A DNA stretch of 32,874 bases from Adlercreutzia sp. ZJ473. GTDB lineage: Bacteria > Actinomycetota > Coriobacteriia > Coriobacteriales > Eggerthellaceae. The notes under the pieces were generated by a model, which worked only from the letters and a program-made list of their open reading frames with translations, was not told the origin of the DNA and made no database searches. This document shows, piece by piece, positions 1 to 17,012 of this stretch; positions within the stretch are counted from its first letter, which is position 1; each line of letters opens with the position of its first letter. Made by a program: the position numbers and the translations under genes. Where the stretch lies: NCBI RefSeq assembly GCF_013185065.1, contig NZ_JAAVTO010000029.1, positions 1 to 32,874 on the forward strand, in the 5' to 3' direction.

Positions 1-315
1 CTCTGCGCGATCGCAGTACTCTATCCAGAAGAGCTTGACCGGGAGCTTCCGGTTCTTCTTCTTGCGCTCGACGAGCGGCGCCATGTCCTGCTGCAAGTAT
101 GCATCGTTGGGCTCCCGCTCCTCCTTCGGGAAGAACAGCTCGTCGATGGCGTCGGCATCCATGGAGCTGACAGCGTCGAAGGTCAGGCGGTGCTCCCTGA
201 TCGCCCTGGCCCCGGCCGACACGTCGCGCTTGCTGACGTGCAGCGCGGCGGCGATGTCGGACTGGCTCGCCCCTCCCTTGGCGAGCATCATGAGGATCTT
301 CTTGTTCTTTGACAT
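1..315 (-). CDS. istA: IS21-like transposase IstA, N-terminal part (partial)
   Basis: The first 105 codons of a transposase gene run leftward off the window. The ATG at 315-313 opens a frame starting MSKNKKILMMLAKGGASQSD. Residues about 10-40 form a helix-turn-helix of the type found at the N-terminus of IstA, where it binds the terminal repeats. Following residues are charged and include a lysine/arginine cluster (ERKKKNRK) near residue 85. The DDE catalytic core and the partner ATPase IstB would lie outside the window. Four GGTACC repeats just upstream support the IS21 assignment. The family call rests on the N-terminal 105 residues and the repeats only. Confidence 0.65.
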   Translation of the reverse strand, partial: MSKNKKILMMLAKGGASQSDIAAALHVSKRDVSAGARAIREHRLTFDAVSSMDADAIDELFFPKEEREPNDAYLQQDMAPLVERKKKNRKLPVKLFWIEYCDRAE

Positions 316-388
316 AGGCATCGAGCCCCTTTCCGTCAGGGCATCCCGAATTGGATGCTCGTCACGGAATTCTATGCTCGACAAATGC

Positions 389-461
389 GGTACCGGGTGT
401 GTTTATGCGCGGTACCAGTTCAGTTGATCGGCGGTACCAAGGTTTGTTGATTGCTGGTACC
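389..461. repeat. Four GGTACC-centred IS-end repeats, 22-23 bp period
   Basis: Copies are centred on GGTACC at 389-394, 411-416, 433-438 and 456-461. Three copies are preceded by GC (GCGGTACC) and the flanking bases between copies are partly conserved (T/G-rich). The helically phased spacing of about two turns fits cooperative binding of transposase to the IS terminus. Confidence 0.7.
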
Positions 462-512
462 AATCAGGTTTACTAGCCAGCGAGGGAGCGCGTCGTCTTC
501 CCGCCTTCGACG

Positions 513-2063
513 CTACACGTCCAGACCCACGTCGCCCCTCGCCCGGCGCGGCACGCCCTCCCGAGGACGTAGCGCAGCCTCGATGTTCCTGCGCGCGGTC
601 ACGAACTCGCGGAGCTGGTATCGGGCCTCGCAGAAGCTCTCGTAGCGCTCGTTGCGAAGGGCCTGCAGCGCTTCCTTGCGCGACTTCAGATCATCCATGC
701 TCGGAACCTCGCCGCCGGGAAACAAGCCCTTCAGCTCCCTTTGCGCCCTCATGAACGCGTCGAGCTCCCTGCGGTGCGCGGAGTAGAACCTCTGCTTGTC
801 GGTGCACCTTCGGTACTGGTCCACGACACGCTTGTTGCCGAAGTACGCGCCACGCGCCCTGATCGCGCGATTGACCGAGCTGAGCTCGGCGTCAACGTCT
901 GCAAGCGCCTTGCGCGCAGCGTCGCGTACGTCCTGCGCGAAATCGCAGGAGCGATTCAAGTCCTCGAGGGAGCTGATTCCGCTCTCTTGGACGAAGGCGA
1001 TCGTCTTGGCCAAGCGCCGAACGTTCGACACGCGCACCTTGCGCGCATACGCCGGAGACCGCATGGCCTTCTGAGCTGCCTCCAGCTCGACCAGCAGGCC
1101 GAGCCGCTCGCGCGTCTCGCCATGCTCGATCCTCGATTGAATGGCCTCGGCGATCACGGGCCACTCGTAGTCCAGGCCGAGCTGACGCCCTTTGATCTGA
1201 CGTGCGTCATCCGGGTGCTTGTAGTAGATCCTCCCGTTGCTCAGCACGCATCCAAGCCCGTACTTCTCGTCCAGGATCCCTGCGAAGGTGCCGAAGTCCA
1301 CGGCTGTCGCGGTCGCGTCGCGCACGGCCTTTCGGACGTAGGCCTTGCGCGTGAGCACGCCGTCGGGCTTTCGCGAAAGATCACCGGTATCCTTCGCGGC
1401 AGACGCGACCCGCTTCGCCGACAGGTGGCGCCCAGACCAGTACTCCCTCTCCGTCACGCGATCGGCCTTCGCAGGAGACAGGAGGTCGACCTGGTGGAGG
1501 CCGCGTCGCTGGCACATGTCCATGACGGCCTGCTTGAGCTCGGCGATGAACTTGTCGCTGGCCTGGTGCTTGCAGCCAGCCCTCCAAAGCCAGCTCTTGC
1601 CCTGCATCCAGCCGCGCTCCGGCTCGTCTTTGATGCGCAGGGAGTTGAGGACGATGTGCGTGTGGATGTTGCCGGACCCCTCCGAGCCGTCCGGGTGGGT
1701 GAAGACGACGCACTGGTGCCCGCCGAACCACTCCTTCGCCAGCGCCAGCGACATGGCCTGCGCCTCTTGCGGGGTCAGGCCGACCTCGACGTCGCGCGGG
1801 TCGTAGGAGATGATGTAGTGGTGGGCCTTGATCTCGTCCTTGCCCTGGTTCTTCCCGTGCTGCCTGTTGGAGATCCTGCACTCGGCGGCGAACGAGAGCG
1901 GCTCGCAGTTTACGCCGTCCATGTAGAACTCCTCGCGGAGGATCGGGTTGCCCTCATCGTCCCTGACCGCCCTGCCGGTCACCTCGTCATGTTGGAAGAC
2001 GAGGTAGTCGATCGCGCCCTGGTAGTTTCCCGAGTGGTTCGCGAGGTGCTTAACGACGGCCAT
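513..2063 (-). CDS. MobP-type relaxase (mobilisation protein)
   Basis: This relaxase of about 516 residues would nick the origin of transfer of a mobilisable or conjugative element and pilot the strand into the recipient. The HUH-type metal site is visible as HH at residues 81-82 followed by HTHIVLN at 134-140. Candidate nucleophilic tyrosines lie near residues 14 and 20. The C-terminal 200 residues are rich in Arg, Glu and Ala and probably helical. I chose the ATG at 2063 because GGAGG lies eight bases upstream; an in-frame start at 2081 has no such support. The gene overlaps the end of the mobC-like gene by 14 bp, so the two are probably translationally coupled. An IS21-like element sits about 50 bp beyond its stop codon, but the frame looks intact. 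Confidence 0.85.
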   Translation of the reverse strand: MAVVKHLANHSGNYQGAIDYLVFQHDEVTGRAVRDDEGNPILREEFYMDGVNCEPLSFAAECRISNRQHGKNQGKDEIKAHHYIISYDPRDVEVGLTPQEAQAMSLALAKEWFGGHQCVVFTHPDGSEGSGNIHTHIVLNSLRIKDEPERGWMQGKSWLWRAGCKHQASDKFIAELKQAVMDMCQRRGLHQVDLLSPAKADRVTEREYWSGRHLSAKRVASAAKDTGDLSRKPDGVLTRKAYVRKAVRDATATAVDFGTFAGILDEKYGLGCVLSNGRIYYKHPDDARQIKGRQLGLDYEWPVIAEAIQSRIEHGETRERLGLLVELEAAQKAMRSPAYARKVRVSNVRRLAKTIAFVQESGISSLEDLNRSCDFAQDVRDAARKALADVDAELSSVNRAIRARGAYFGNKRVVDQYRRCTDKQRFYSAHRRELDAFMRAQRELKGLFPGGEVPSMDDLKSRKEALQALRNERYESFCEARYQLREFVTARRNIEAALRPREGVPRRARGDVGLDV

Positions 2064-2430
2064 TCGGAACGCCTCCGGCAACCCTCGACAGCTCCGAGCA
2101 GAGCCCGTGGATCTCAGTCAGCTGCCTGCGCAGGCGCAGCTCGAGGTCGTCGTCTATCCGCTTGCGCGAATTGCACAGGTGAACCGCTTGGTTGAGGTTG
2201 TTGCCGACGCGGGAGAGCTCCCGCAGGACCGGCACCACCTGCGAGGCGTCCAGGACGATCTCGTGCTTGACGACGACGCTTCGGCCGTCGATGACCTGGC
2301 GGACGTACCCGCCCACGCTGACGCCCTGCCTCCGCGCCTCGCCAACGAGCGCCTGGTACTGCGACTCGGTCAGCGAGACGTTGACCGTGCGGGTTTTCCG
2401 CAACTCGGGGTCCTTCGGTTTTCGAGCCAA
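2050..2430 (-). CDS. mobC: MobC-like relaxosome accessory protein (ribbon-helix-helix)
   Basis: This protein of about 126 residues probably binds oriT DNA and helps the downstream relaxase. Residues about 14-47 (RTVNVSLTESQYQALV and following) look like a ribbon-helix-helix fold. The segment VLRELSRVGNNLNQAVHLCN is the hallmark of MobC proteins. I chose the TTG at 2430-2428: AAGGAGG lies a few bases upstream and the encoded LARKPKDPELRK is a typical basic N-terminus. The longer open frame to 2571 has no ribosome binding site and runs through non-coding-looking sequence. It overlaps the relaxase start, as is usual for mobC-relaxase pairs. Confidence 0.8.
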   Translation of the reverse strand: MARKPKDPELRKTRTVNVSLTESQYQALVGEARRQGVSVGGYVRQVIDGRSVVVKHEIVLDASQVVPVLRELSRVGNNLNQAVHLCNSRKRIDDDLELRLRRQLTEIHGLCSELSRVAGGVPNGRR

Positions 2431-2730: not shown

Positions 2731-3957
2731 TCAGTCCCTCCGGAACAGATCTCGGGTGTAGACCTTGGCCTCCACGTCGCCGAGCTCGGGGCTCCAGCGG
2801 TTGGCGACGATCAAATCGCAGCGCCGCTTGAACGTCCCCAAGTCGTGGGTGACCTCACTGCCGAAGAGCTCGGGAGCGTCAAGCATCGGCTCATACACCA
2901 CAACAGGAATACCCTTAGCCTTAACGCGCTTCATGATGCCCTGGATGGAACTAGCACGGAAATTATCAGAGCCTGATTTCATGGTGAGGCGATAGATACC
3001 CACTACCGGTTTTTCAACTCCTGCATAGACTAGCTTCCATACCTGGTCTACCACCTCTTCGGCAATATAGTCTTTACGGGTACGGTTGGCCTCTACTATG
3101 GCCTCAATCAAGTTTTGAGGAACATCCTTGTAGTTAGCAAGTAATTGCTTGGTGTCTTTAGGTAGGCAATATCCTCCATAGCCAAAAGAAGGGTTGTTGT
3201 AATGGCTTCCAATGCGAGGGTCATAGCCTACCCCTTCAATGATTTGACTGGCATCAAGACCTCGCACACTGGCATAGGTATCAAGTTCGTTGAAATAAGA
3301 TACGCGAAGAGCAAGGTAGGTATTGGCAAAGAGCTTTACCGCCTCAGCTTCAGTTGCTCGCATGATAAGAGTGGGAATACTATCGCGTGAATCTTGTGCC
3401 CCTTCAGCTAAGAGTGACACGAACTTGGTTGCTGCTGTTTCAAGCTCACCAATGTAGGAACTCTCAGAAGGAACACCAACGATAATGCGAGAAGGGTGCA
3501 AGTTGTCGTAGAGCGCATGGCCTTCTCGCAAAAACTCAGGACTAAAAAGAAAACGAGCAGATGGATAGCGCTCGCACAAAGACTTGGTATAACCAACAGG
3601 TACCGTGGACTTTATAACCATAACCGCTGTTGGATTTACTTTGAGTACTAGCTCTATGACTTGTTCGACATAGCGAGTATCAAAGAAGTTACGTTCTGTG
3701 TCATAGTTGGTAGGTGTTGCTATGACGACTATCTCAGATTCCCTATAGGCTTGCTCCCCATCCAAGGTAGGATGCAAATCAAGATCTTTGTTAGCCAGGA
3801 AGTCTTCAATCTCAGCATCGGCGATGGGGCTTTGTTTGTTCCGTAATAGTTCAATTTTTTCAGGTACTACATCTACCGCATAAACAAAGTTGTTCTGTGA
3901 CAGTAATACTGCCAAAGAAAGACCGACATAACCCGTTCCCGCTACAGCGATTTTCAT
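2731..3957 (-). CDS. ugd: UDP-glucose 6-dehydrogenase
   Basis: Oxidises UDP-glucose twice with NAD+ to give UDP-glucuronate, a precursor for acidic surface polysaccharides. The 408-residue length suits the short bacterial form. The N-terminal Rossmann motif GTGYVG is at residues 7-12. The catalytic cysteine sits in GGYCLPKDT around residue 260, just after the NNPSFGYGG substrate loop. The ATG at 3957 is preceded by AGGAAAAGAACTT. It is the last gene of the minus-strand operon, about 115 bp after rmlC and just before a strong terminator. An 18-bp leader element upstream is repeated in front of rmlB. The coding sequence is clearly less GC-rich than the chromosomal genes further right, suggesting acquisition with the locus. 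Confidence 0.93.
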
Positions 3958-3970
3958 AAGTTCTTTTCCT

Positions 3971-3988
3971 TCTCTTCAGTTTTCAAAG
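3971..3988 (-). repeat. 18-bp leader repeat, copy 1 (upstream of ugd)
   Basis: On the minus strand CTTTGAAAACTGAAGAGA lies just before the ugd ribosome binding site. An identical 18-mer is found at 5719-5736, before rmlB. The two copies are the only leader sequence shared between genes of this operon that I found. Confidence 0.7.
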
Positions 3989-4073
3989 TGCAAATAAAAG
4001 CCACCTTGTTTTGGCACTCCTTTCAACGACCTAGAGAATTACCTCTGAAATATGAACACCAAAAAAGCTGTTT

Positions 4074-4676
4074 TCAGAATAATGAGTCTTTTATACTGGC
4101 TAGAAGCGGATGCCTCTCATCCTTCTCACTCAGCACTACCTTGGCAAGATCGAAGACATCGTCCCCCTGCATGGCAGGCCATTTGATCCCTATAGCAGGA
4201 TCGTTCCACATAAGACCACCCTCGTCATTGGGATGATAGACGTCATCGCACTTGTAGCAGAACTCTGCAGTGTCTGAGAGAACCAAGAATCCATGAGCAA
4301 AGCCGCGAGGAATAAAGAATTGACGTCTGTTTTCGGAGGAGAGGTTCACACCCTCCCATTTGCCATAGGTAAGGCTGTCCCGTCTCAGGTCAACCGCAAC
4401 ATCAAAGACCTCACCAGAGACAACGCGTACCAACTTTGCTTGAGGATGGTTGATTTGAAAGTGAAGACCACGAAGAACGCCTTTAGTAGAGCTTGATTGG
4501 TTATCCTGTACGAAGTCACAGGTGATACCGCCTGCCTCAAAATCAGGCTTCTTGTAAGTTTCCATGAAGCAGCCACGCTCGTCCCCATAGGATTTAACGT
4601 CTACTATGATTACTCCCTCAATAGAGGTTTCAGTAAAGGTAAAATTACCGTTTGTAATTTGGTTTCCTTGCGCCAT
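4074..4676 (-). CDS. rfbC: dTDP-4-dehydrorhamnose 3,5-epimerase
   Basis: Third step of dTDP-L-rhamnose synthesis: epimerises carbons 3 and 5 of dTDP-4-keto-6-deoxyglucose. At 200 residues it has the normal single-cupin length. Family signatures are visible: the stretch RGLHFQINHPQAKLVRV (about residues 69-85) with the catalytic histidine, the DLRRDS segment, and FIPRGFAHGFLVLSD, which contributes to the cupin core. The ATG at 4676 follows GGGGGTAAGAATC, only 12 bp after the rmlB stop codon, so the two are co-transcribed. With rmlA, rmlB and rmlD it completes the rhamnose pathway. Confidence 0.95.
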   Translation of the reverse strand: MAQGNQITNGNFTFTETSIEGVIIVDVKSYGDERGCFMETYKKPDFEAGGITCDFVQDNQSSSTKGVLRGLHFQINHPQAKLVRVVSGEVFDVAVDLRRDSLTYGKWEGVNLSSENRRQFFIPRGFAHGFLVLSDTAEFCYKCDDVYHPNDEGGLMWNDPAIGIKWPAMQGDDVFDLAKVVLSEKDERHPLLASIKDSLF

Positions 4677-4688
4677 GATTCTTACCCC

Positions 4689-5736
<1,048 letters not shown>

Positions 5737-5774
5737 GACCACAGTGATTCATATAAGGAAAAGTGTTTGGAACG

Positions 5775-6677
5775 TTATCCTTCTAGTTCAGGTAGATGTT
5801 GTAAGTAGCTATCCAGTGCTTCTTGCCAGGGACGCATTTCGTTGCCGACCGTATCTGTTAAGCGCTGGTTTTTAAGAGCACTATAGTGGGGTCTGTTGGC
5901 AGATTCAGGATTAGCTTGTTTGTATTGCATACTGCTAACAGGAACTACGTTGCAGGATAGATTTGACTTTTCCATAATGCGGGCAGCAAGCTCAGCCCAC
6001 GAGCAGGTGCCTTCATTGGTTACGTGATAGATTCCGTAAGCATCAGTTAATGCAATCTTTAAGATCTCATAGGCTAGATCATTAGCTGAAGTAGGATTAC
6101 CCAACTGATCATTTACTACCGTTACTTCATCTAAACGCCTGCCAAGGCTACGCATGGTCTTGACGAAATTCTTGCCAACGTATCCATAGAGCCAGGCACT
6201 ACGGCAAATAAAAGTCCTTGGATTAGCAGCAAGCGCAAACTGCTCTCCTGCAAGCTTGGTTCTACCATAGGCAGATATAGGACCTGTTACATCGGTCTCT
6301 ACACGTTCGCCTGGAGTGTCTCCTGGAAAGACATAGTCGGTAGAGACATGGACAAACTTAGCTCCTTGTATAGCGCAGTTCTTAGCAAGGTTCTTAGGAC
6401 CGAGTGCATTTACCTTGTAGGCTGTTTTTTCATCAGTCTCACAACCGTCGACATCAGTAATAGCTGCGCAGTTGATAACTAAATCATAAGCATGGGTATC
6501 CATCCATTGGCTTACTGCAATAGGATCTGAGATATCAAGCTCGTCGCAATCAACGTAGTCGGCCATTGCGCCCAGATAGTTGACAGGAATAGGACCAACT
6601 TCTGCCTTCATGGTACTGAGGCAGCGTTTGAGTTCGTTGCCAAGCTGACCACGAGAACCTGTAATAAGAATTCTCAT
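5775..6677 (-). CDS. rfbD: dTDP-4-dehydrorhamnose reductase
   Basis: Last step of dTDP-L-rhamnose synthesis: reduces dTDP-4-keto-L-rhamnose. The 300-residue length is normal. MRILITGSRGQLGNEL is the nucleotide-binding start, VNCAAITDVDGCETD the conserved block around residues 68-82, HVSTDYVFPGD the segment before the active site, and YGRTKLAGE carries the catalytic tyrosine and lysine. AAGGA lies six bases before the ATG at 6677. The gene is separated by only 13 bp from rmlA upstream and shares its lower GC content. Confidence 0.95.
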   Translation of the reverse strand: MRILITGSRGQLGNELKRCLSTMKAEVGPIPVNYLGAMADYVDCDELDISDPIAVSQWMDTHAYDLVINCAAITDVDGCETDEKTAYKVNALGPKNLAKNCAIQGAKFVHVSTDYVFPGDTPGERVETDVTGPISAYGRTKLAGEQFALAANPRTFICRSAWLYGYVGKNFVKTMRSLGRRLDEVTVVNDQLGNPTSANDLAYEILKIALTDAYGIYHVTNEGTCSWAELAARIMEKSNLSCNVVPVSSMQYKQANPESANRPHYSALKNQRLTDTVGNEMRPWQEALDSYLQHLPELEG

Positions 6678-6690
6678 AAGTAGTCCTTCT

Positions 6691-7602
6691 TTAACTTACC
6701 TGGTTGCGATTTACCCCAGGCACGATTTGCCCTTCAGAGACTTTCCGTAAATGCCTGCCATAGACTGATTTGCCGTATTGAGAAGCTGCCTCTATAAGCT
6801 CATCTTTTGAGATCCAGCCATTCTCAAAAGCAATCTCTTCAGGAACACTAACAGGCAAGTCTTGACTACGTTCAACTGAACGCACGAACTCACCTGCCTC
6901 GAACAATGACTCCATGGTACCAGTGTCTAACCAAGCAAAACCACGACCTAAAGTGACAACGTTCAAGGACCCATCTCCCAAATACATTTGATTTAAGGTG
7001 GTGATCTCCAACTCACCACGTGCACTTGGTTTAACTAGTTTTGCCATCTCGCACACTCTGGAGTCATAGAAGTAAAGCCCCGTTACGGCATAGTTTGATT
7101 TAGGATGCTCTGGCTTCTCTTCAATAGATACTGCATTGAAGTCTTTATCAAACTCAACAACCCCGAAGCGTTCTGGGTCATCAACATGATATCCAAAAAC
7201 AGTAGCTCCCCCTTGTGCTTCGGCCCGCTCTACTGCTGCACGAAGACGTTTCTTTAATCCATTACCAAAAAAGATATTGTCACCTAAAACAAGTGCGCAA
7301 GGCTCACCCGAGATGAACTCTTCTCCAATGAGAAAAGCTTGAGCAAGACCGTCAGGTGAAGGTTGTTCAGCATAAGAAAAGCTCACACCAAAACGTGAAC
7401 CATCACCTAAAAGTCGTTTAAAGTTAGGAAGATCAGTAGGAGTAGAGATAACTAAAATTTCTCTAATGCCTGCCAACATCAGAACTGATAGCGGATAGTA
7501 GATCATCGGCTTGTCGTAGATCGGCAAAAGCTGTTTGCTCGTTACACTGGTGAGTGGATATAAACGACTACCACTGCCACCCGCAAGAACAATGCCTTTC
7601 AT
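6691..7602 (-). CDS. rfbA: Glucose-1-phosphate thymidylyltransferase
   Basis: First step of dTDP-L-rhamnose synthesis: joins glucose-1-phosphate and dTTP. The signature [11 protein letters not shown] follows MKGIVLA at the N-terminus, and [17 protein letters not shown] and LGDNIFFG are classic RmlA blocks. I chose the ATG at 7602 (303 residues): it overlaps the wzx stop codon as ATGA, a translational-coupling arrangement, and AGAGGTGG lies at a suitable distance. The in-frame GTG at 7614 is less likely. It is normal in length for the family. Confidence 0.95.
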
Positions 7603-9020
7603 AGTTGTTTCCACCTCTCAATAGCGCTAACACAGATTGACAAAATCAAAGATCTTCTATTTGTATCTACAAGAATCCACGCACAATAAGCCGCGAGGAA
7701 AACAACAAATCCAGCTAAACAGTCCAGTGCTAAAGAGCAGAGAAGAAAGATCATCGAGACAAGAAGATTACCGATAAAACTCTTGATATACTTTTGGTTC
7801 AGCTTATGAGCAAAATACCGTTCTGATATTGCACTTCTGCAAACAATAGCCAACACTCCACCCAGCACCACCGCAAAAGGGGAACCAATTACTAAAGACC
7901 CCAATAAAGAAAAACCCGCGCTCAAACCACAAGCGAACACATTAACTCCAAGAAGCCTTGTCTCTTCTCTTAGAACCTTAAAATACGTCGTTGAGAGAAT
8001 TGACATACGCCCATCAAACACGCATAACGGCAACAAAACCGGAAGAATTAGCATAGACTCCGAATAATCCGGTAGCCACCATGAAACGACAATGAATATA
8101 GGGAAATAAAGAAAAAATGTTAGAGGAAGCAATACGTCCAATCCTTGCTGCAACCTCTGATATATAGCCGATATGTTTTTCTCTTGTCTTAGAGCCGGAA
8201 ACAAGACCATAGACACCTGATTAATGAAAGATAGAGAAAATGTCGAAAGAGAGATAGCTAACGAATATATACTGAAGGTTTCTATACCCCAAGTACCTTC
8301 AATAGTAAACTGCGCTATTCCTAGGATTAGGCTGCTAGCTAAATTCGCTAACATCAACTTACACCCAGCTTTTACATCTGCTACAGATCTTTTGATGCAG
8401 GTTTTTAATGTAGGCATTCTTTTTGTAGCAAGAAAATCGCGAAAATTGAATAGATTAAAAACAAAAGCAATAATCTGAGACAAGATATAAAAGACAACAA
8501 AGGCCTTGAAAGAGTCTGCCTTAAATAGAACAAGAATAACAATACTTAAAAAGAATGCACTACGATTTATCACTATAGAATACGAGTATAGCCTCGTTTC
8601 ATCCATTGCTTGAAATATATATCCCATAAAATTGGCAAGATTATTAACCACGAGCAAGATTGCTACTGAGCAAAGAACAAACACTCTCTCTGTGTCTTCG
8701 ATAAAAACAAATGACGTAAAAGCAATAATGATACCCAAACACATTTGCGTTGCAGATTCAAGGAGAAATTGCCCTTTGGCCTCCCTTTTGTCTACCTCGC
8801 TTCTTGGAGTGCCGCCTAAGCGCAAATACACGCCATCATTAAATCCGAAATGACCAAAGCCAACATAACTTGCGTACAGAAGAAATAGTTGCCAATATCC
8901 ATAGTCAGCAACTCCTAGTATTTTTGGCATCAGGAAAGACACTGATGCCATTACTAGAAAGGAAATACCCTGAGAGAACAGAGCGATAGCAACGTTTTTG
9001 GTAATACGGTTTAAGGACAT
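7599..9020 (-). CDS. wzx: Wzx-type polysaccharide flippase
   Basis: A 473-residue integral membrane protein with about 12 to 14 hydrophobic segments, of the oligosaccharide flippase/MATE-like superfamily. It would move the undecaprenyl-pyrophosphate-linked repeat unit across the membrane. The N-terminus ([20 protein letters not shown]) and the following [21 protein letters not shown] match the usual beginning of Wzx proteins, where [10 protein letters not shown] is conserved. It starts 2 bp after the wzy stop codon and ends in an ATGA overlap with rmlA. The coding region is AT-rich. Substrate cannot be read from the sequence. Confidence 0.85.
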
Positions 9021-9022
9021 AG

Positions 9023-10291
9023 CTAAAAGCTCTGTAATTGATTCCTAGCTAAGAACTTGCACACTACTGCAATAATCAAAAAGGCAGCGATATAGGTTCC
9101 GTATATCCAAGGCGAAATAATAAAGGAATAGAGATAGAAATACAGAATCGCGGAGTATGCAACCTCAACTATTGGACTCGTTTCTCTTCCTCGATATATC
9201 AATTGACACAGTGCACCCTCTACAAAACCCAAAATCAACATAAAGAGAAGTCCTCCACAAAACCCATAATCAAGAATGAGTCCGCGAAAGGCACTGAAAA
9301 CATTGCCGTGCCCAGATGCAAGAACCGTATAAACTCCACCTATACGAGACACAAATCCTAGTTGAACAAAAGGGGCCATAAACGTATTGAGACCAAATTC
9401 ATAATTTGAAACAGAATACTTAGAGGCCCAATAATCAAAATTCCAAACTTCTCCGAATAAGTATACTGAATACTTATCAAGCGCTGCCTGAACAGCCCAT
9501 GAATCAAAAGAGCCAAATCTCAGTAAAAAAGTAAGATAGAATAGGAATAATAGAGCAATGGCAACGATTGCGCCTAGAATGAATCTTCTTGCAGTCACCT
9601 CAGGAAGACGTTTGTGAATTGAAAAATACCTGGCAAAATAAAAGCAAATCCACAGCATCGCAGACCCAATAAAGCCCGCTTTGCCGCTCGTTGTTAGCAT
9701 AAGCAAAGTTATGGGAATTAAAGTACATAAGCACAGTGCTCGTTCTGATCTTTTTTGCGTATGGTTAAATAAATACCCACCTATCCCGGCTGCAGCATAA
9801 ACAAAGCAGACCAGTATTTGAGACGCTATCCCAGATGACTTTGTTCCCAAATAGCGTTCTGCGCTAATAGAAGAGGTCATATCAAGAGTAGATGAAACGC
9901 TCGCAAAAGACGAGAATGAAATACCATACGTTGATGCCTGTATAAGAAAGTAGGCCAATCCAAGCGAAATAAATGATACCAATACCATTATTTCGTCTAT
10001 TTTCAAACCAAGTCTCTTGTTGGCTCCTAGCCCAATAGCAGCATTTTGACAGCAACCTTGCTTAAAGAATGCTTGCTTTCCGATGAGATATCCCAATAAC
10101 GTACATACCAGCATGCCAAAAAGCCATAGAGGACCCACCATGTTCCATGGCAAATCTTCAGCTGCAAAAGAACCAACTATACTGACCATCCAAACAAAAC
10201 AAAAAATATTAATTGGTTGTAGCCAAGTTCCAGTTATACGCCTTGCTATAAAACACAGCAGGCCCAATAAGAAAGTGACAAGAATCAGCAT
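9023..10291 (-). CDS. wzy: Wzy-like polysaccharide polymerase
   Basis: A 422-residue protein with roughly 10 to 12 membrane segments and a larger extracellular loop in the second half (around WAVQAALDKYSVYLFGEVWNFD). This topology, and its place between a glycosyltransferase and the flippase, is that of an O-antigen/capsule polymerase, which joins repeat units outside the membrane. Wzy proteins are poorly conserved in sequence, so the call is from topology and context. The ATG at 10291 overlaps the end of the upstream glycosyltransferase by 7 bp. AT-rich. Confidence 0.75.
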   Translation of the reverse strand: MLILVTFLLGLLCFIARRITGTWLQPINIFCFVWMVSIVGSFAAEDLPWNMVGPLWLFGMLVCTLLGYLIGKQAFFKQGCCQNAAIGLGANKRLGLKIDEIMVLVSFISLGLAYFLIQASTYGISFSSFASVSSTLDMTSSISAERYLGTKSSGIASQILVCFVYAAAGIGGYLFNHTQKRSERALCLCTLIPITLLMLTTSGKAGFIGSAMLWICFYFARYFSIHKRLPEVTARRFILGAIVAIALLFLFYLTFLLRFGSFDSWAVQAALDKYSVYLFGEVWNFDYWASKYSVSNYEFGLNTFMAPFVQLGFVSRIGGVYTVLASGHGNVFSAFRGLILDYGFCGGLLFMLILGFVEGALCQLIYRGRETSPIVEVAYSAILYFYLYSFIISPWIYGTYIAAFLIIAVVCKFLARNQLQSF

Positions 10292-11100
10292 GAATTCTCG
10301 CCCTTTAGAATTTTTTCATAAACATAAATATTGGAGTCTTTAAGCTGAGTGTTAATATCATCTAAGAATTTCATTGATCCATCTTGTTTATGGACAACCC
10401 GAATCGATGGACAATATAAGACTCGAACGCCATTTTTAGCTGAATTCCAGGCTAGAAGACCTTCTTCCGCAAATAAAAAAATGCCTTCATCGAAAACAGG
10501 ATATAGCGCTTCTATTGCAGACAACGAAAAAACGATGAAGCTACCATGAGGCTGATAGACTGTTTTATTCTCCCTGTGACAACCTAAAGCAAACAATTCT
10601 CGAATTATCTTATTTGCACAAACCCCTAAACACAGCAACAATCTGCTTTCGTTTTTAAAGCCTAGATAGATTAGGCGTTCGGCCAACTTGCTTCTCTTAG
10701 CAATCATTGGGTTTTGTCTTTTTCCAGATAACGTTCTTATATCTGGTGCAAGAATACTTTTTTCCAAAGGATTAAACCCATTCAAAGAGAATTCTTCAAT
10801 CACCGTATCTGGATTTGACACAACAAGCCATTGAAAAGCATACTCTGAAACAGCATGGGTTATTCCGACATTGTTCCCATAGCCGTATCCCCTATTTTCA
10901 ACGCTTAAGAAATCAGCTCCATACTGATTTGCTAAACGCTGGAACTCATTTTCGGACACATCGTCATAGTAGCTATTCACGATTACGATATGGAATGTAT
11001 AGTTATGGATTTTTTGAACAGTAGATTCAAGAAATGTCTCTAGATCTTTTGTGTTTCGATAAGTTAGCACTATAAAGACAACGTCATAGGACTCGGGCAA
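10285..11100 (-). CDS. Family 2 glycosyltransferase
   Basis: A 271-residue cytoplasmic glycosyltransferase that would add one sugar to the lipid-linked repeat unit. The N-terminus (DVVFIVLTYRNTKDLETFLES) is a GT-A nucleotide-binding strand-helix start, followed by GYGYGNNVGI and VVSNPDTVI. The latter is the D-x-D/N-P-D type metal site seen in rhamnosyltransferase-like GT2 enzymes. LFAEEGLLAW in the second half corresponds to the catalytic acid region (usually F..ED.DL). The start is a TTG at 11100, six bases after the epimerase stop codon, with a weak ribosome binding site. Given the rml genes, rhamnose transfer is possible but unproven. Confidence 0.8.
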   Translation of the reverse strand: MPESYDVVFIVLTYRNTKDLETFLESTVQKIHNYTFHIVIVNSYYDDVSENEFQRLANQYGADFLSVENRGYGYGNNVGITHAVSEYAFQWLVVSNPDTVIEEFSLNGFNPLEKSILAPDIRTLSGKRQNPMIAKRSKLAERLIYLGFKNESRLLLCLGVCANKIIRELFALGCHRENKTVYQPHGSFIVFSLSAIEALYPVFDEGIFLFAEEGLLAWNSAKNGVRVLYCPSIRVVHKQDGSMKFLDDINTQLKDSNIYVYEKILKGENSC

Positions 11101-11106
11101 AATACA

Positions 11107-11943
11107 TCACAACCGATCATTCATTATTGAGTCAATCACCGTAGAGTCACCAAATATTTCTGGTGAATCGTACGGTCTATCCGGAAAAGCATCAAAGTCT
11201 ATGTCTAATTCGTATCCTTTTGATTCAATGTAGTCAGATACATATTCCCCCAAGGCAACAGAAGTGCCGCTACAGACATTAATTATCCCCGTATACTTTT
11301 CCTGTCCAACAATTGCAACAATTTGACGAGCTGCTTCCGTAATAGAAAGAAAGTCATATTTGTTCTTTCCTGAATTTAAAGGAAAAGAGCAATCCCCCCT
11401 TTTTGCCGCTTGGTCTATTTTTGCAAATATAGACTGAGCTCTACTATTATCACCAACAAGATAATAGCCTCTCAGCCAAAATAACCGTGTCTGAGAATTC
11501 TGGCATATAATCTCCGCCAGCTCACGCAAGGCATTCTTTGAGACACCATAAAAAGACATGGGATTGCATGGTGTAGCGCTGTCAACTTTTCCCTCCCAAT
11601 AACCAATCTCATGCATGGAGCCCATAACTGCAATCTTTTTAACGTTTCTATCAACAGCTCGACGTAGTAGATCAACATGTAGGGGCAAATCTTCTATATG
11701 CGAAAAATGGGAGTGATTGAACCCGTTACGCCATGCGAGGTGAATCAAAACATCAGACACCTCTAAAAGATCATCTATTTCACCAAAAACATCACGAGCA
11801 AAAAAACTAGCTTTCGGATCTAAATCCTCTTTGGACCTATCGACAGCAATAACTCGATAATCCGCGCGTATCAGCTCGTCCACAACATGACGACCAATAT
11901 AGCCATTTGCCCCCGTTACTAAAACTACTTCGCCTTTGCTCAT
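11107..11943 (-). CDS. NAD-dependent epimerase/dehydratase family protein
   Basis: A 278-residue extended short-chain dehydrogenase. VLVTGANGYIGRHVVDEL is the NAD(P)-binding motif at about residues 7-24, and YGVSK near residue 133 supplies the catalytic tyrosine and lysine. It would modify a nucleotide sugar (epimerisation, dehydration or 4-keto reduction) for the repeat unit; the exact reaction cannot be told. It is somewhat shorter than UDP-glucose 4-epimerase, and an EIGYWEGKVDSATPCNP loop precedes the active site. Eight base pairs separate it from the upstream GT11 gene and six from the downstream GT2. Confidence 0.8.
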   Translation of the reverse strand: MSKGEVVLVTGANGYIGRHVVDELIRADYRVIAVDRSKEDLDPKASFFARDVFGEIDDLLEVSDVLIHLAWRNGFNHSHFSHIEDLPLHVDLLRRAVDRNVKKIAVMGSMHEIGYWEGKVDSATPCNPMSFYGVSKNALRELAEIICQNSQTRLFWLRGYYLVGDNSRAQSIFAKIDQAAKRGDCSFPLNSGKNKYDFLSITEAARQIVAIVGQEKYTGIINVCSGTSVALGEYVSDYIESKGYELDIDFDAFPDRPYDSPEIFGDSTVIDSIMNDRL

Positions 11944-11951
11944 AGATGCTC

Positions 11952-12860
11952 CTACAATAAATAGTTAGCGTTTATAGAATAAACATCAGGAATGCCCTTG
12001 GAGTTTCGTCTCCACCGCTTTGGTGCAACGATTATTTTTTGAGGGTAAGCACTTAGATATGCGCCCCACCATGAAAAAGTGCTATTTGCTATAACAAATT
12101 GCTTACAAGAGTAAAGCGCTCTCAACGACTCATGAGCGTTCAGACCCTCTACATACACGACTTCGAAAGGAAAAACAAAGGACTGTCTTACATGATCCAG
12201 ATCATCTGAAAAAACAAAAAATTTTGCGTTGTCAACTAAAGTGTTAACCAGACGCATTCCGCGATAGTAGTATTCAGGATCACATACATCTAAGTTTGTT
12301 CCTTTATAACCATGACCGCAACGAATGCTGACTCCAACAGGGTTCTCGCAAGAGCATATCGCTCTAAGGTATTCAGATTCGAGGGATTTGATCGGCAACG
12401 ATACCCTAAACTCCTCTCGTATCTGCTTTTCGACGGACTCGAAATGAGTAGCGCCCTGAAAATACCCGTAAACATATCTGATCTCTCTATCAGAAACGGG
12501 TGGCTTATAGTAATAGGCGTCGAAATTGAAATAAAAGCCTTGATTTGCAAACCAATCAAATACTCTTTCGCCAATACAGTCAGTATTATTTGCAGTTCTG
12601 ATGATTTTTTGCAATCCTCTATAGAGCTTCTGTGCCATCCGTGCCCTTCGATATTCTCGTTTCTCAAGTGGAAAATCGTTTATCATTCGGGTTTCAGGGA
12701 TAGAAAGGCCATCTAATCCATAATCTCGTATTCCATAAGACTCAAAAGAACCTAGATCAAATACAATATCGTCATCATTGAGCAACTTGGAAAGACTCAG
12801 GGCATACGCATACTGGAACATTTGGTTTCCCAAGCCACCTATTAAACGCACAACAATCAT
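11952..12860 (-). CDS. Family 11 glycosyltransferase (alpha-1,2-fucosyltransferase-like)
   Basis: A 302-residue protein of the GT11 family, which usually transfers L-fucose in alpha-1,2 linkage. The N-terminal motif GGLGNQMFQYAYALSL (residues 8-23) and the C-terminal NSTFSWWGAYLS are strongly conserved family blocks. The central motif that normally reads V-H-x-R-R-G-D-Y is here VSIRCGHGY, so the second arginine and the aspartate are replaced. Activity or donor may therefore differ. No GDP-fucose synthesis genes are present in the window. The start overlaps the acyltransferase stop codon as ATGA. Confidence 0.82.
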   Translation of the reverse strand: MIVVRLIGGLGNQMFQYAYALSLSKLLNDDDIVFDLGSFESYGIRDYGLDGLSIPETRMINDFPLEKREYRRARMAQKLYRGLQKIIRTANNTDCIGERVFDWFANQGFYFNFDAYYYKPPVSDREIRYVYGYFQGATHFESVEKQIREEFRVSLPIKSLESEYLRAICSCENPVGVSIRCGHGYKGTNLDVCDPEYYYRGMRLVNTLVDNAKFFVFSDDLDHVRQSFVFPFEVVYVEGLNAHESLRALYSCKQFVIANSTFSWWGAYLSAYPQKIIVAPKRWRRNSKGIPDVYSINANYLL

Positions 12861-13447
12861 TTATCGATATGCCTTATCCATTGATTGCTGGCGGAGTCCC
12901 ATCTCTTTATTACACGCACAGGATTGCCAACCGCGATAGAACAGGGGGGGATATCTTTATTCACTACAGAGCCCGCTCCTATAATGGAGTTATATCCTAT
13001 TCTTACCCCAGGAAGTACAACAACGTTTTCGCCTATCCAACAGTTATCTTCAATAGCAACAGGAGCAGTAATTAAAGGCTGCTGCGAGTATCCCTCATCG
13101 CAGCAATACATGCCATGATTCTCTGTCGTAATCAAGATATACGAAGCTGCAAGAACGTTATTACCTATACAGCAATCATCTGCCACTAGAAATCTACAAT
13201 CATCACCAAACATGGTATTGTCTCCGATAGTTAAACTGGGAGACAAAGATTCCCCACCATGCCTGTCATAGCAGTAAAGTCTGCATCTTTTTCCCAGCGA
13301 TATATTTTTCCCGAATGCAACATACTTAGGCCTGCGGCAACTAAAATCTTTACCGATCACCAAACCTGACCCATGCTGAATCGCAATCGTACTTGGAACG
13401 TGTCGCAGTGATGAAACAAGTGCTTTAATCACCCTTTTTATATCCAT
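12857..13447 (-). CDS. Hexapeptide-repeat acyltransferase (O-acetyltransferase-like)
   Basis: A left-handed beta-helix acyltransferase of about 196 residues, probably acetylating a sugar of the repeat unit. Imperfect hexapeptide repeats run through IGDNTMFGDDCRFLVADDCCIGNNV (split over residues 75-100) and again IEDNCWIGENVVVLPGVRIG, IGAGSVVNKDIPPCSIAVGNP, the last being the standard C-terminal signature of the CysE/LacA/NodL group. The likely catalytic histidine is in ITTENHGMY. I chose the ATG at 13447, which follows GAGAGAG; an upstream TTG at 13453 is possible. It overlaps the GT11 start. Confidence 0.87.
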   Translation of the reverse strand: MDIKRVIKALVSSLRHVPSTIAIQHGSGLVIGKDFSCRRPKYVAFGKNISLGKRCRLYCYDRHGGESLSPSLTIGDNTMFGDDCRFLVADDCCIGNNVLAASYILITTENHGMYCCDEGYSQQPLITAPVAIEDNCWIGENVVVLPGVRIGYNSIIGAGSVVNKDIPPCSIAVGNPVRVIKRWDSASNQWIRHIDK

Positions 13448-13483
13448 GTACAACTCTCTCCATACATATCCAATTTACAATCA

Positions 13484-14251
13484 TCACCTTTTAAAAGTCT
13501 TGATGATTGCCCAAGAAAGAATCGCCAAGGTACTCTTCAAAAACCCTATCGATTCAACATCGTGATATAGCCTCCACTGATAAGCTAATAGCTTTCTTTT
13601 ATCTGCGGACAAAGAATTCCGCCTCATCCTATAGCGAGCCAGTACCTCTGGCATCCCATATGCTTTGTGGCCATCTCGGCTTATGCGCAACCACAAAGCA
13701 AAATCATTACGCTTTTTTATATCTGGCGCATAGTACTTCCCAATGGAATTGCAATCATAAATAACCGTACTATTTCCTATTGGATTGCCGCTAAAAAGAA
13801 TTTGGTTGTAACCTGCTACTTTATATGGCATAGCCACAGAAATAAGTTTGGAAAAATCTTCATTTCGCTTTTCGTACGCAGTGCACGAAAAAACCGCCCC
13901 CCGTAAACGCATGAATTCTATTTGCGTTTCCAGTTTGTTAGGCATCCAGTAATCATCACTATCAATAAAGGCAATATATCTACCTCTTGAATTTTGTATG
14001 CAAAGATTTCTCGAGGCCGCAACACCCAAGTTATCAACATTTTGAAAGAGTCGTATTCTTGAATCCTTGAGACATAACTCCTTAATCGCCGCCACAGATC
14101 CATCCGTAGAGCAATCATCGCAAATTAGCAACTCAAGGTTTCCGTATGTCTGGGCGAGAACAGAATCGATAGCAGCGCGAATGTAACGCTCACAGTTAAA
14201 TGAGGGCATTATCACTGAAACAAGATCGTTGCTTGAAGCGTCTACTAACAA
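13484..14251 (-). CDS. Family 2 glycosyltransferase
   Basis: A 255-residue GT-A enzyme. SVIMPSFNCERYIRAAIDSV is the canonical GT2 start, LICDDCSTDGS the first aspartate block and YIAFIDSDDYWMPNKLE the DxD metal-binding motif, around residues 90-107. The C-terminal region is basic and ends with KTFKR, consistent with membrane association. The start is the TTG at 14251, immediately after the TAG of the priming transferase, with AAGGAG eight bases upstream. It probably adds the second sugar after the priming transferase; donor and linkage are unknown. Confidence 0.88.
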   Translation of the reverse strand: MLVDASSNDLVSVIMPSFNCERYIRAAIDSVLAQTYGNLELLICDDCSTDGSVAAIKELCLKDSRIRLFQNVDNLGVAASRNLCIQNSRGRYIAFIDSDDYWMPNKLETQIEFMRLRGAVFSCTAYEKRNEDFSKLISVAMPYKVAGYNQILFSGNPIGNSTVIYDCNSIGKYYAPDIKKRNDFALWLRISRDGHKAYGMPEVLARYRMRRNSLSADKRKLLAYQWRLYHDVESIGFLKSTLAILSWAIIKTFKR

Positions 14252-15127
14252 CTACCGTGCTCCTTCGTGAGTAAACAAAACTCGGATTGTTTTGCAGATA
14301 AGTTCCCAATCCAGAGCAAAGCTGCAATCTTTAATGTATTTCAAATCGAAAACGATCTTCTCTTCAGGTAAAAGGTCGTAGCCGCCATTTACCTGGGCCA
14401 GACCCGTGATGCCGGGCTTAACCATCATGCGCTGGGAGAAGCCGTGGATGTACTTCTCGAACTCCCCGTAGAACACCGCACGCTCGGGACGAGGGCCTAT
14501 GAGCGAGAGGTCCCCCTTCACGACCGACCAGAACTGGGGCAGCTCGTCAAGCCGGTTTGCCCTGATCTTCTTTCCTATGGGAGTGACGCGAGGGTCGTCT
14601 CCTTCGGCCCACTGCGCGCCGCGCTCCTCGGCGTCGACGTACATGCTGCGGAACTTGACGATGGTGATGGGCCTGCCGCCCAGACCCAGACGCTCCTGTT
14701 TGTAGAAGACGGGACCGGGAGAGTCCTTCTTGATCTTGTAGGCGATGACGGCCATGGGAATCGCGCACACGACGAGCGCGCAGGAGCAGCTCGCTATATC
14801 GAAGACGCGCTTCGCGAAGCGGTACAGGTAGCGCTTGGGCAGCTCGTCCGGGTCGATCTTCTCGAGCTCGACCACGCGCGTGGTGTCGACGAGCTTGGCG
14901 ACCGTTTCTGCAACGGCGGGGTCAACTTCGTCGTTGTAGTTGGCGTGGGGCAGGACGTCTCCCGCATGCCGCCGCTCTGCAGTGTCGGAGCAGACAACCG
15001 CACCACCCTCAATAGCTAAATCAGCTTGGTCATCGAACCTGTCGGCAAAAGCCGGGGATGCGATCTCGAAGCTGACGATCGCAGGCCGCCTGGCCGAGGC
15101 GGAGTTCCTTTCGTCAACGACCGTCAT
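14252..15127 (-). CDS. Undecaprenyl-phosphate sugar phosphotransferase (priming enzyme)
   Basis: A 291-residue polyprenyl-phosphate hexose-1-phosphate transferase (bacterial sugar transferase family, WcaJ/PglC type) that starts repeat-unit assembly. After a variable N-terminal region of about 110 residues comes KRVFDIASCSCALVVCAIPM (the re-entrant membrane helix), then SPGPVFYKQERLG, the catalytic block VKFRSMYVDAE, and NRLDELPQFWSVVKGDLSLIGPRP (residues read in parts), all typical. The upstream gene ends in an ATGA overlap with this start. The central part is GC-rich like the host chromosome while the last 40 to 50 codons are AT-richer, so a composition breakpoint lies inside the gene near 14400. 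Confidence 0.93.
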   Translation of the reverse strand: MTVVDERNSASARRPAIVSFEIASPAFADRFDDQADLAIEGGAVVCSDTAERRHAGDVLPHANYNDEVDPAVAETVAKLVDTTRVVELEKIDPDELPKRYLYRFAKRVFDIASCSCALVVCAIPMAVIAYKIKKDSPGPVFYKQERLGLGGRPITIVKFRSMYVDAEERGAQWAEGDDPRVTPIGKKIRANRLDELPQFWSVVKGDLSLIGPRPERAVFYGEFEKYIHGFSQRMMVKPGITGLAQVNGGYDLLPEEKIVFDLKYIKDCSFALDWELICKTIRVLFTHEGAR

Positions 15128-15621
15128 GCAAGCGCCGCAGCTGACGCGGCGGGCAAAACAGACCCGCGTCCCTTTCTACCAAATGCGCATTTGGATTTTC
15201 TCGGAACCAGCTTGTATCCGTTGTCTAGCTGGGCTTTCAGGGTGTTCAGCAAGCAACTTCCGAAGTTGTGCCTAATTATGACTTGTTCGACGCGCTCCTG
15301 CGCGTAGATCGCGGGACCCGGGGACTCCGACTTTATCCTGAGCGCCACCGCCGCCATGGGGAGCGCGAGGACGACGAGCGCCAGCCCGCACGCGCACACG
15401 TCGAACGCGCGCTTCACGGCGCGGTACCCCAGGCCGCCCGCGACATGCGGCTCCTCGAGCACGACCACGTCATCGCCCGGCAGGAGCCTCCCCAGCACGT
15501 CGGCGGGGATGCCCCCCTCGCGCAGGCCCGGCTCGTGCCTGCCGGCCGCGTCGGCCGCAGCCGCGGCCCTGCGCTCCTCGGGCGTGACGCAGGCCTCATC
15601 GACTTGCAGGGCGTAGCTCAT
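15124..15621 (-). pseudogene. Truncated/chimeric sugar transferase
   Basis: The first 105 residues match the start of a second priming sugar transferase: a variable N-terminus, then VKRAFDVCACGLALVVLALPM, the re-entrant helix, and SPGPAIYAQERV. After QERV the family sequence stops and about 55 unrelated residues follow (EQVIIRHNFGSCLLNTLK and onward) to the stop codon. The catalytic FRSM and DELPQ blocks are absent, so it cannot be an active transferase. The foreign tail is AT-rich at about 15180-15285. The frame ends in an ATGA overlap with the intact transferase, so translation through it may still matter for coupling. I infer a deletion or recombination that fused a 5' sugar-transferase fragment to the tail of another gene. 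The ATG at 15621 has no clear ribosome binding site. Confidence 0.7.
15254..15268. repeat. 15-bp perfect palindrome at the chimeric-gene junction
   Basis: CAACTTC-C-GAAGTTG lies about 20 bp from the point where sugar-transferase homology ends. Its core CTTCCGAA recurs inverted near 15804-15811 and directly at 17139-17146, on both sides of the recombinase gene. Confidence 0.45.
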
Positions 15622-15992
15622 GCGCGGGCCCCCGCGCCCTGCCGGGCATGTCGGATCTGCTGGGTCAATTGACCTAGCAGATCATCCGGACGCGAGGCGC
15701 GAGGCGCGCCCGAGATGACTCGATGTCCCGAATCAGGGACAGAAACGCACTCGCAGGCCGCGCCACCCGCGCCATCGGCCCCCGACTTCCTGAAATCGGC
15801 CTTTTCGGAAGTTCGCGAAGCTCGCCGGCTGCCCAGCTGCCTGACTGCCCAGCCGGCGCTCGCTTGCCTGACTGACCGTCTCGTCTATTCCGGCGCCTTC
15901 TCTTCTTGCATGCTGCAGATTCGCTTCGAGGCTTCTAGGATTGCATCGTATCGAAGAAGTCATGCAACGAGATCAACAGCGAGGTGTTCTCA
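15622..15992. other. Upstream region of the polysaccharide operon and recombinase
   Basis: This 371-bp stretch lies between divergent genes and has no convincing coding region. It contains a GCGCGGG/CCCGCGC hairpin (15624-15639 approx.), the 30-bp near-palindrome at 15654-15683, a TGTCCC/GGGACA inverted repeat (about 15723-15740), an imperfect hairpin built from CTTCC/GGAAG (15786-15811), and two copies of TGCCTGACTG 27-28 bp apart (about 15838-15875). The leftward operon promoter should lie here, but I see no clear -35/-10 pair. Confidence 0.4.
15654..15683. promoter_or_regulatory. 30-bp near-perfect palindrome (operator or recombination site)
   Basis: Half-sites GATCTGCTGGGTCAA and TTGACCTAGCAGATC are inverted copies of each other with a single mismatch and no spacer. 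It lies 33 bp upstream of the first minus-strand start codon and about 310 bp from the recombinase start. A dimeric regulator site or a recombinase site would both fit; the sequence alone does not decide. Confidence 0.55.
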
Positions 15993-17012
15993 ATGAAGGC
16001 AGATATCGAGAAACGAGCGGGGAAGGCGAGCTCCGCCAGAAGAGGTGGCATGTCAGAGAAAGGCAGGGCGTCCGCCGAGGAGGAAGGCGGCGCGTCGAAA
16101 GAGGGCAGGGCGCTTGCAGAAGGAGAGGGTGGGACACCTGTCAAGGAAGCAGACAGCGTGCTGGAGATGGACGGCGCATCCGCCGCCCAAGCAAACAGCG
16201 CCCCCATCAACATGGGCAGCTACGAGCGCTTCCTCCGGGATCAGGGCTTGGCGCCGGGCACGGTGCGCCTTTACGTCAGGGTGGCGTCGGACTACCTGAG
16301 GGAGTTCGGCAGCCCCAGCCGCGAGGGCGCGAGCCGCTATCGCGACGAGCTTGTCGGCAGGTGCAAGCCGGCTACGGTCAACCTGCGGGTGAACGCCCTG
16401 AATCGCTTCCTCGCGTACGAGGGCATGCCCGAGTGCAGGGTCGGCTGCGTGCAGGTCCAGCGGCGCAGCTACCTCGAGGGCGTGATCAGCGCGGGGGAGT
16501 GCCAGCGGCTCGGGCGCATGCTGCTCGAGCACGGTCACATGACGTACTACTTTGCGGTGAGGGTCTTGGCCTCGACCGGCCTTCGGGTGAGCGAGCTGCT
16601 GGAGCTGACCGCCCGGGACGTGCGCGCCGGCCACCTCGACGTGGTGTCCAAGGGCGGCAAGGCCAGGCGGGTGTTCATCCCGTCCTCGCTCTGCGCCGAG
16701 CTGGGGCGGTGGCTCGCGGAGGAGGGCCGTGTGGAGGGCTGCGTCTTTCTCAACGCGCGGGGAGAGCGCATCACCGCGCGCGGCCTGTCGGGCCAGCTCA
16801 AGGTGCTCGCGGAGCGCTACGGCATCGACCCTTCGGTGGTGTACCCGCACTCGTTTCGACACCTGTTCGCGCGCAGCTTCCTCGACGCGCGGGAGGACAT
16901 CGCCCTCCTGGCCGACCTCATGGGACACTCGTCCATCGAGACGACGCGCATCTACCTGCGCCGCACCGCCTCCGAGCAACGCGCGGTGGTGGAGGAGGTG
17001 GTCACGTGGTGA
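15993..17012 (+). CDS. Tyrosine recombinase (XerC/XerD-like integrase)
   Basis: A 339-residue site-specific recombinase. The full catalytic set is visible: R198 in STGLRVSELLEL, lysine in SKGGKARR (about 220-223), H286-x-x-R289 in HSFRHLFAR, H312 in LMGHSS and the nucleophile Y321 in TRIYLRRT. A SAM-like core-binding domain (MGSYERFLRDQGLAPGTVRL onward) precedes it. Unusually, the first 73 residues form a charged, low-complexity extension rich in Lys, Glu, Ala and Gly; the true start could be the ATG near 16212. I chose the ATG at 15993 because GAGGTG lies six bases upstream. Position beside a mosaic priming-transferase region suggests it acts on the polysaccharide locus. It may equally be an integrase remnant or a Xer paralogue. 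Confidence 0.88.
   Translation: MKADIEKRAGKASSARRGGMSEKGRASAEEEGGASKEGRALAEGEGGTPVKEADSVLEMDGASAAQANSAPINMGSYERFLRDQGLAPGTVRLYVRVASDYLREFGSPSREGASRYRDELVGRCKPATVNLRVNALNRFLAYEGMPECRVGCVQVQRRSYLEGVISAGECQRLGRMLLEHGHMTYYFAVRVLASTGLRVSELLELTARDVRAGHLDVVSKGGKARRVFIPSSLCAELGRWLAEEGRVEGCVFLNARGERITARGLSGQLKVLAERYGIDPSVVYPHSFRHLFARSFLDAREDIALLADLMGHSSIETTRIYLRRTASEQRAVVEEVVTW

Follow-up and report, generated by a model that had tools for sequence, protein, structure and literature searches.

A polysaccharide operon in the genome of Adlercreutzia sp. ZJ473 opens with only the beginning of a priming sugar transferase gene, joined in frame to an unrelated sequence and immediately followed by a second, complete transferase gene, with a tyrosine recombinase gene reading away from it upstream. 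The question raised by this locus is how such a mosaic came to head an operon, and whether the neighbouring recombinase had any part in it. The window analysed here is a whole contig of 32,874 nt, referred to below as C39, from a draft genome of 2.63 Mb; C11, C50 and C64 are other contigs of the same genome.

A priming transferase gene in two parts

The chimeric open reading frame (ORF; positions 15124-15621, minus strand) comprises 110 transferase codons and, in the same frame, a foreign tail of 54 codons. Its match to the Pfam family Bac_transf is limited to positions 1-44 of 179, and codon 110, the R of QER, is the last with homology to intact transferases, confirming the earlier note's description of a sugar-transferase 5' fragment fused in frame to an unrelated tail. 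This resident 5' half (codons 1-110; 15292-15621, minus strand) has 95.2% nucleotide identity to an intact paralogue on C64, the alignment with which reaches window position 15288, four bases beyond codon 110. The four bases concerned (15288-15291, minus strand) are an overlap common to both junctions of the split gene, reading GTCG in the window and GACG in C64, in C11 and in Adlercreutzia sp. ZJ176, one of two congeneric Eggerthellaceae genomes that were searched.

The remainder of the ORF (15124-15287, minus strand), which forms the left end of the island described below, has a GC content of about 50% in surroundings of 62-87%; hence it is AT-rich, as had been claimed, relative to its context, but not in absolute terms. 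Substitutions between this tail and that of ZJ176 are spread evenly over the codon positions (seven, five and five), unlike those in the flanking coding sequence, and because its changes ignore codon positions the tail is taken to be conserved at the level of DNA and not of protein. The same even distribution ruled out a selected protein domain. An RNA element was also rejected, as the tail folds with a z score of +1 and has no Rfam match above the gathering score. Among 138 genomes of the family, only ZJ176 contains a full-length match to the tail; a search of IMG/VR found none, and comparison of the region from the head to the second transferase gene with plasmids returned only partial matches to Rhodococcus transferases. 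The junction itself also recurs in ZJ176, with 89% identity over a 168 nt tail region, and in no other of the 138 genomes. Its identity in the two species argues that the mosaic is not a chance product. The stop codon of the chimera overlaps the start of the second transferase gene (GT2) as ATGA (15124-15127); this overlap, already reported in the earlier note, is real, and is found in ZJ176 too.

The missing 3' half of the resident gene, which the earlier note had overlooked, was found by searching the genome with GT2. A C-terminal transferase half lies at C11:41449-41886, beginning mid-gene after an AT-rich stretch and heading a second polysaccharide operon (operon B), which is without both the 5' half of its first gene and a leader. 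On the C64 reference, the window covers the gene to position 6193 and C11 covers it from 6196, the halves meeting with a 4 bp overlap, such that C64 positions 6193-6196 lie in both matches. As they meet on the same four bases, the two are the collinear halves of a single gene that was cut at one place. The C11 half is 97.3% identical to the intact paralogue, and with both halves 95-97% identical to that copy, the split would be either recent or maintained by conversion.

Upstream of the fragment is the resident leader of the split gene (15622-15812, minus strand), homologous to the loaP-transferase leader on C64 (80% over 191 nt) and folding with a z score of -3.5. It contains a palindrome (15654-15683; GATCTGCTGGGTCAA/TTGACCTAGCAGATC), the core of which, GGTCAATTGACC, is found shortly upstream of the transferase start in four heads (those of the window, C64 (L048), L046 and L047), with a variant base in one copy. 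This is possibly an operator or an RNA hairpin, and it recalls the Eggerthella palindrome mentioned below. A LuxR/GerE-type regulator is encoded at window positions 30085-31800. A scan of the leader returned no match to a simple promoter consensus. The loaP gene precedes the transferase in C64 and ZJ176, and since C39 has no loaP upstream, expression of the operon in the window may be weaker, or otherwise controlled.

A probable ICE-like island between the two halves

Both C39 and C11 terminate in an insertion sequence, one end of which occupies window positions 1-479 (minus strand), whilst the other end starts C11. We take this to be an IS21-like element; it had no Pfam match. Its outer ends match one another (TGGCTAGTAAAC...GGTACC and TGAGTAATAAAC...GGTACC), and it is bordered by a 6 bp target duplication, CCTCGC on the minus strand, at window positions 480-485 and again at C11:128-133. 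Once the insertion sequence is removed, the flanks form a 13 bp terminator hairpin, the perfectly complementary 13-base arms of which are split between the contigs. The rebuilt join also matches an uninterrupted copy on C50 (69 nt at 84%), which is flanked by remnants of the relaxase and ArdC genes that border the join, likewise convergent and in the same order. From the opposite insertion sequence ends, the duplication, the rebuilt terminator and the intact C50 copy, we infer that the reverse complement of C39 continues into C11; with the contigs so joined, everything between the transferase halves would constitute one inserted island. On C64, an ISL3-like transposase gene recognised by eye (L048:2987-4324) lies inside a polysaccharide operon, apparently disrupting a glycosyltransferase; C11 ends, and contig C2 of ZJ176 begins, with related sequence.

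The island is about 58 kb long, consisting of 14.8 kb on C39 and 41.3 kb on C11 (56.1 kb assembled) together with the insertion sequence. Its features of an integrative and conjugative element (ICE) are a MobA/VirD2-type relaxase (513-2081, minus strand; PF03432, E = 2.7e-13), the type IV secretion system (T4SS) components represented by a VirD4-type coupling protein (C11:8512-10293; PF02534) and a TraG/VirB4-type ATPase (C11:4353-6959; PF19044), and target junctions that are identifiable at both ends. Other island genes on C11 encode ArdC, a SpaA-type surface protein, AbiE-type proteins and three large serine recombinases, all three recombinase genes lying at 18-24 kb on the contig. Relatives of the relaxase were found at 40-49%, all without the T4SS of this island; the VirD4 protein has no match in the relatives, being found in this genome only, as is the right end of the island. 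Two inverted copies of a DUF6870 gene (C11:24012-24302 and 33111-33323; 98% identical over 213 bp) flank a 9 kb segment of the island containing the AbiE genes and a WD40 protein, which is possibly invertible.

The cargo is polysaccharide operon A (2731-14251, minus strand), mostly of 37-47% GC and including genes for glycosyltransferases (one of them of family 11), a hexapeptide acyltransferase, the rml rhamnose pathway and a UDP-sugar dehydrogenase. It is preceded by the island-borne GT2 (14252-15127, minus strand), an intact priming sugar transferase of the TIGR03025 family with a full-length match to PF02397 (Bac_transf positions 1-178 of 179). Near position 14357, the identity of GT2 to its ZJ176 counterpart drops from 86.4% to 58.1%, and from 76% to 29% at third positions, leaving a divergent 3' end (14252-14356, minus strand). 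This fall, a second breakpoint that had also escaped the earlier note, suggests that the cargo operon has been exchanged inside GT2 as well.

The ends of the island resemble each other in inverted orientation. The left terminal repeat (15265-15289, minus strand) and its partner, the last 24 bases before C11:41449, agree at 18 of 26 positions with at most one indel, a similarity reached by one in 4000 single shuffles and by none of 300 with an offset search, and weaker by a plain random-pair test (about 0.3-0.6%). Both ends share GACG with the target, the insertion falling at the QERDGR codons, and if joined they would form a 50 bp imperfect palindrome around this shared core. Such an imperfect palindrome around the core is expected of a serine-integrase attachment site. 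The serine recombinase genes, however, sit 17 kb away from the right junction, a weak point of this reading; the inserted island may be larger than the ICE and contain it.

The split, the collinearity of its halves, the content of the island, the similarity of its ends and the reappearance of the left junction in another species can all be read directly from the sequence. The best explanation for them, which we consider probable, is that the island is an ICE or ICE-derived element with capsule-type cargo, and that it integrated into the resident priming-transferase gene, placing operon A behind the resident leader. The element would have inserted at the GACG tetranucleotide within the QERDGR codons, probably in a site-specific reaction, with a serine recombinase as the putative catalyst. 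The resident leader and 5' half would then precede GT2 in the same orientation, as one ORF with its stop overlapping the GT2 start, and the leader is predicted to transcribe the chimera, GT2 and operon A, with translational coupling between them. Beyond the far end, operon B would be silent, as it has lost its leader and first half-gene; excision, should it occur, would restore it and thereby switch the surface polysaccharide.

Comparison with Adlercreutzia sp. ZJ176 and rival explanations

In its 5' part, junction, tail and ATGA overlap, the ZJ176 chimera agrees with that of the window, but it has loaP antiterminator genes upstream and a different operon downstream. Beyond the chimera region, no shared neighbourhood was found between the two over the 45 kb compared. 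In addition, ZJ176 lacks the 3' half, the right end of the island and any counterpart of the relaxase and VirD4, from which its island would appear to be reduced or different. The 5' part is 95% identical between the window and C64, and 93% identical between the ZJ176 chimera and the intact ZJ176 copy, but only 83-86% identical between species. Either separate insertions occurred at the same site in each species' own transferase, which would imply site-specificity, or there was possibly a single old insertion, the fragments then being homogenised by gene conversion with the intact copy. The unshared 45 kb neighbourhoods favour separate insertions. The divergence of GT2, with a third-position identity of 76% between species, is like that of the resident orthologues (75-80%), and is either neutral or favours a single insertion with conversion.

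Across the rebuilt contig link, the halves of the resident transferase are collinear and face the same way, as an insertion would leave them. This is difficult to reconcile with an origin in which polysaccharide loci recombined, by chromosomal inversion or homologous exchange, so as to join the resident head to another operon and leave the 3' half elsewhere, as might be proposed by analogy with Eggerthella lenta. Such rearrangements have precedent in the same family, in which megabase inversions of capsular polysaccharide (CPS) loci are reported at a 16 bp repeat (PMC13174815). Our own searches of Eggerthella genomes place this repeat in the 5' portion of the CPS reading frame that comes first. 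Furthermore, two heads in this genome share around 555 bp at 87% identity, enough for homologous recombination, and an exchange of cargo is visible at the 3' end of GT2. However, the core of the Eggerthella repeat is absent from this genome, and the junctions share just 4 bp, with no long common sequence; we therefore regard an origin by inversion or exchange as unlikely.

Rather more improbable is that the locus is a decayed relic of an old illegitimate insertion, in which the fragment, the tail and operon B are non-functional and GT2 is expressed from a promoter of its own. The fragment does lack a catalytic domain, ZJ176 is without the right end and 3' half, and the scan of the leader for promoters was empty. 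Against this, the frame, tail and ATGA overlap have been kept in two species at 83-89% identity, the halves retain 95-97% identity to the intact copy, and the ICE genes examined in the island are still open reading frames.

The tyrosine recombinase gene (15984-17012, plus strand; PF00589, E = 1.9e-26) is complete and reads away from the operon, as the earlier note had it, with the R, K, HxxR, H and Y catalytic residues intact and the ORF beginning 363 bp from the start of the chimeric fragment; an ATG at 15993, with GAGG upstream, is the likelier start codon. No match to it was found in the named genomes. A tree of 13 members of the family places it with four others (support 1.000); three of these, the nearest to it whose surroundings could be read, stand between inverted type I restriction hsdS genes, the fourth being on a 3.2 kb contig without hsdS. 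The window contains no hsdS genes, those of its own genome being on C25 and C66. In type I restriction loci of the Eggerthellaceae (ZJ176 L050:3963-11700, L082 and L081), hsdS genes stand as inverted pairs on either side of a tyrosine recombinase gene; these loci are likely to be phase-variable hsdS systems. Phase variation of the chimera by this recombinase, for all its completeness, proximity and relatives in inverted hsdS cassettes, is very improbable, as the gene is outside the island, the window has no inverted-repeat pair around the chimera or promoter (the leader palindrome stands alone), the ZJ176 chimera has no adjoining recombinase and the relatives serve hsdS loci; the enzyme is probably a bystander. 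Inversion of a capsule promoter of the Bacteroides type, which the earlier note had cited as a precedent, is similarly contradicted by the lack of an inverted-repeat pair or promoter match in the window. By the terms of the earlier note, a uniform junction and a recombinase lying away from polysaccharide loci in relatives would speak against its proposal; that the junction is identical in both species compared, and that the recombinase relatives are away from polysaccharide loci, tells in part against it. What survives of the proposed exchange hot spot is that the priming-transferase region is a point of operon exchange; what finds no support is the tyrosine recombinase as its agent.

Implications and relation to known systems

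How sensitive gut bacteria are to phages, and how the immune system recognises them, is decided by their surface polysaccharides. If integration into the resident transferase is site-specific, a single step of conjugation would bring in a new polysaccharide and switch off the old one, the cargo landing downstream of a control region already in place. Such integration would complement the megabase inversions recently reported in Eggerthella, and would point to the first operon gene as a general site of exchange in the family. More tentatively, the island could represent a family of capsule-switching ICEs that target resident priming-transferase genes, bringing about reversible and transferable changes of polysaccharide in gut Actinomycetota; each would carry an interchangeable operon behind a constant attachment site and GT2, under the control of the resident leader, and excision would restore the resident operon. 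A limited literature search, which is weak evidence, found no report of a priming transferase gene as the insertion target of an ICE.

The window recombinase resembles the PsrA-type hsdS invertases (PMC7096588, PMC4948785) in grouping with recombinases of hsdS loci, but differs from them in having neither adjacent hsdS genes nor inverted repeats.

Reversible megabase inversions of capsule clusters in E. lenta, occurring at GATAAGCGCGGTTATG, were described in a 2026 preprint; they change the linkage of the clusters to loaP and are associated with phage resistance (PMC13174815). We located this repeat in Eggerthella genomes, where it is read in frame, as DKRGYV, within the 5' end of the gene that opens the CPS operon. 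At loci L113-L120 (e.g. L119:9244-10125 and L115:9029-10000), a short leader ORF next to loaP is fused via the repeat to a transferase or thymidylate-kinase-like gene, such that either of these genes would acquire a different N-terminal leader on inversion. Eggerthella heads without loaP have a palindrome, GGGGTCAnnnTGACCCC, upstream of the repeat. Neither this genome nor that of ZJ176 contains a match to the 14-base core of GATAAGCGCGGTTATG. The two systems are alike in belonging to the same family, in a recombination within the 5' portion of the operon's first gene that reassigns polysaccharide operons to another head, and in having heads linked to loaP. They differ in that the E. lenta rearrangement is an inversion at a 16 bp repeat with no recombinase found nearby, whereas the event proposed here is an ICE-like insertion with 4 bp shared; the collinear halves and the absence of the Eggerthella core argue for insertion rather than inversion.

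Some ICEs use large serine recombinases with a very short crossover core. The island is like these in its relaxase, coupling protein, serine recombinases, imperfect inverted symmetry of the ends and short core, and unlike them in that its putative integrase genes sit well inside the right end. Delivery of a capsule operon by a mobile island is also known from the ICE-like SPI-7, which bears the Vi capsule operon and sits in a tRNA gene. The target of the present island, by contrast, appears to be the first gene of a resident polysaccharide operon, the leader of which ends up before the cargo.
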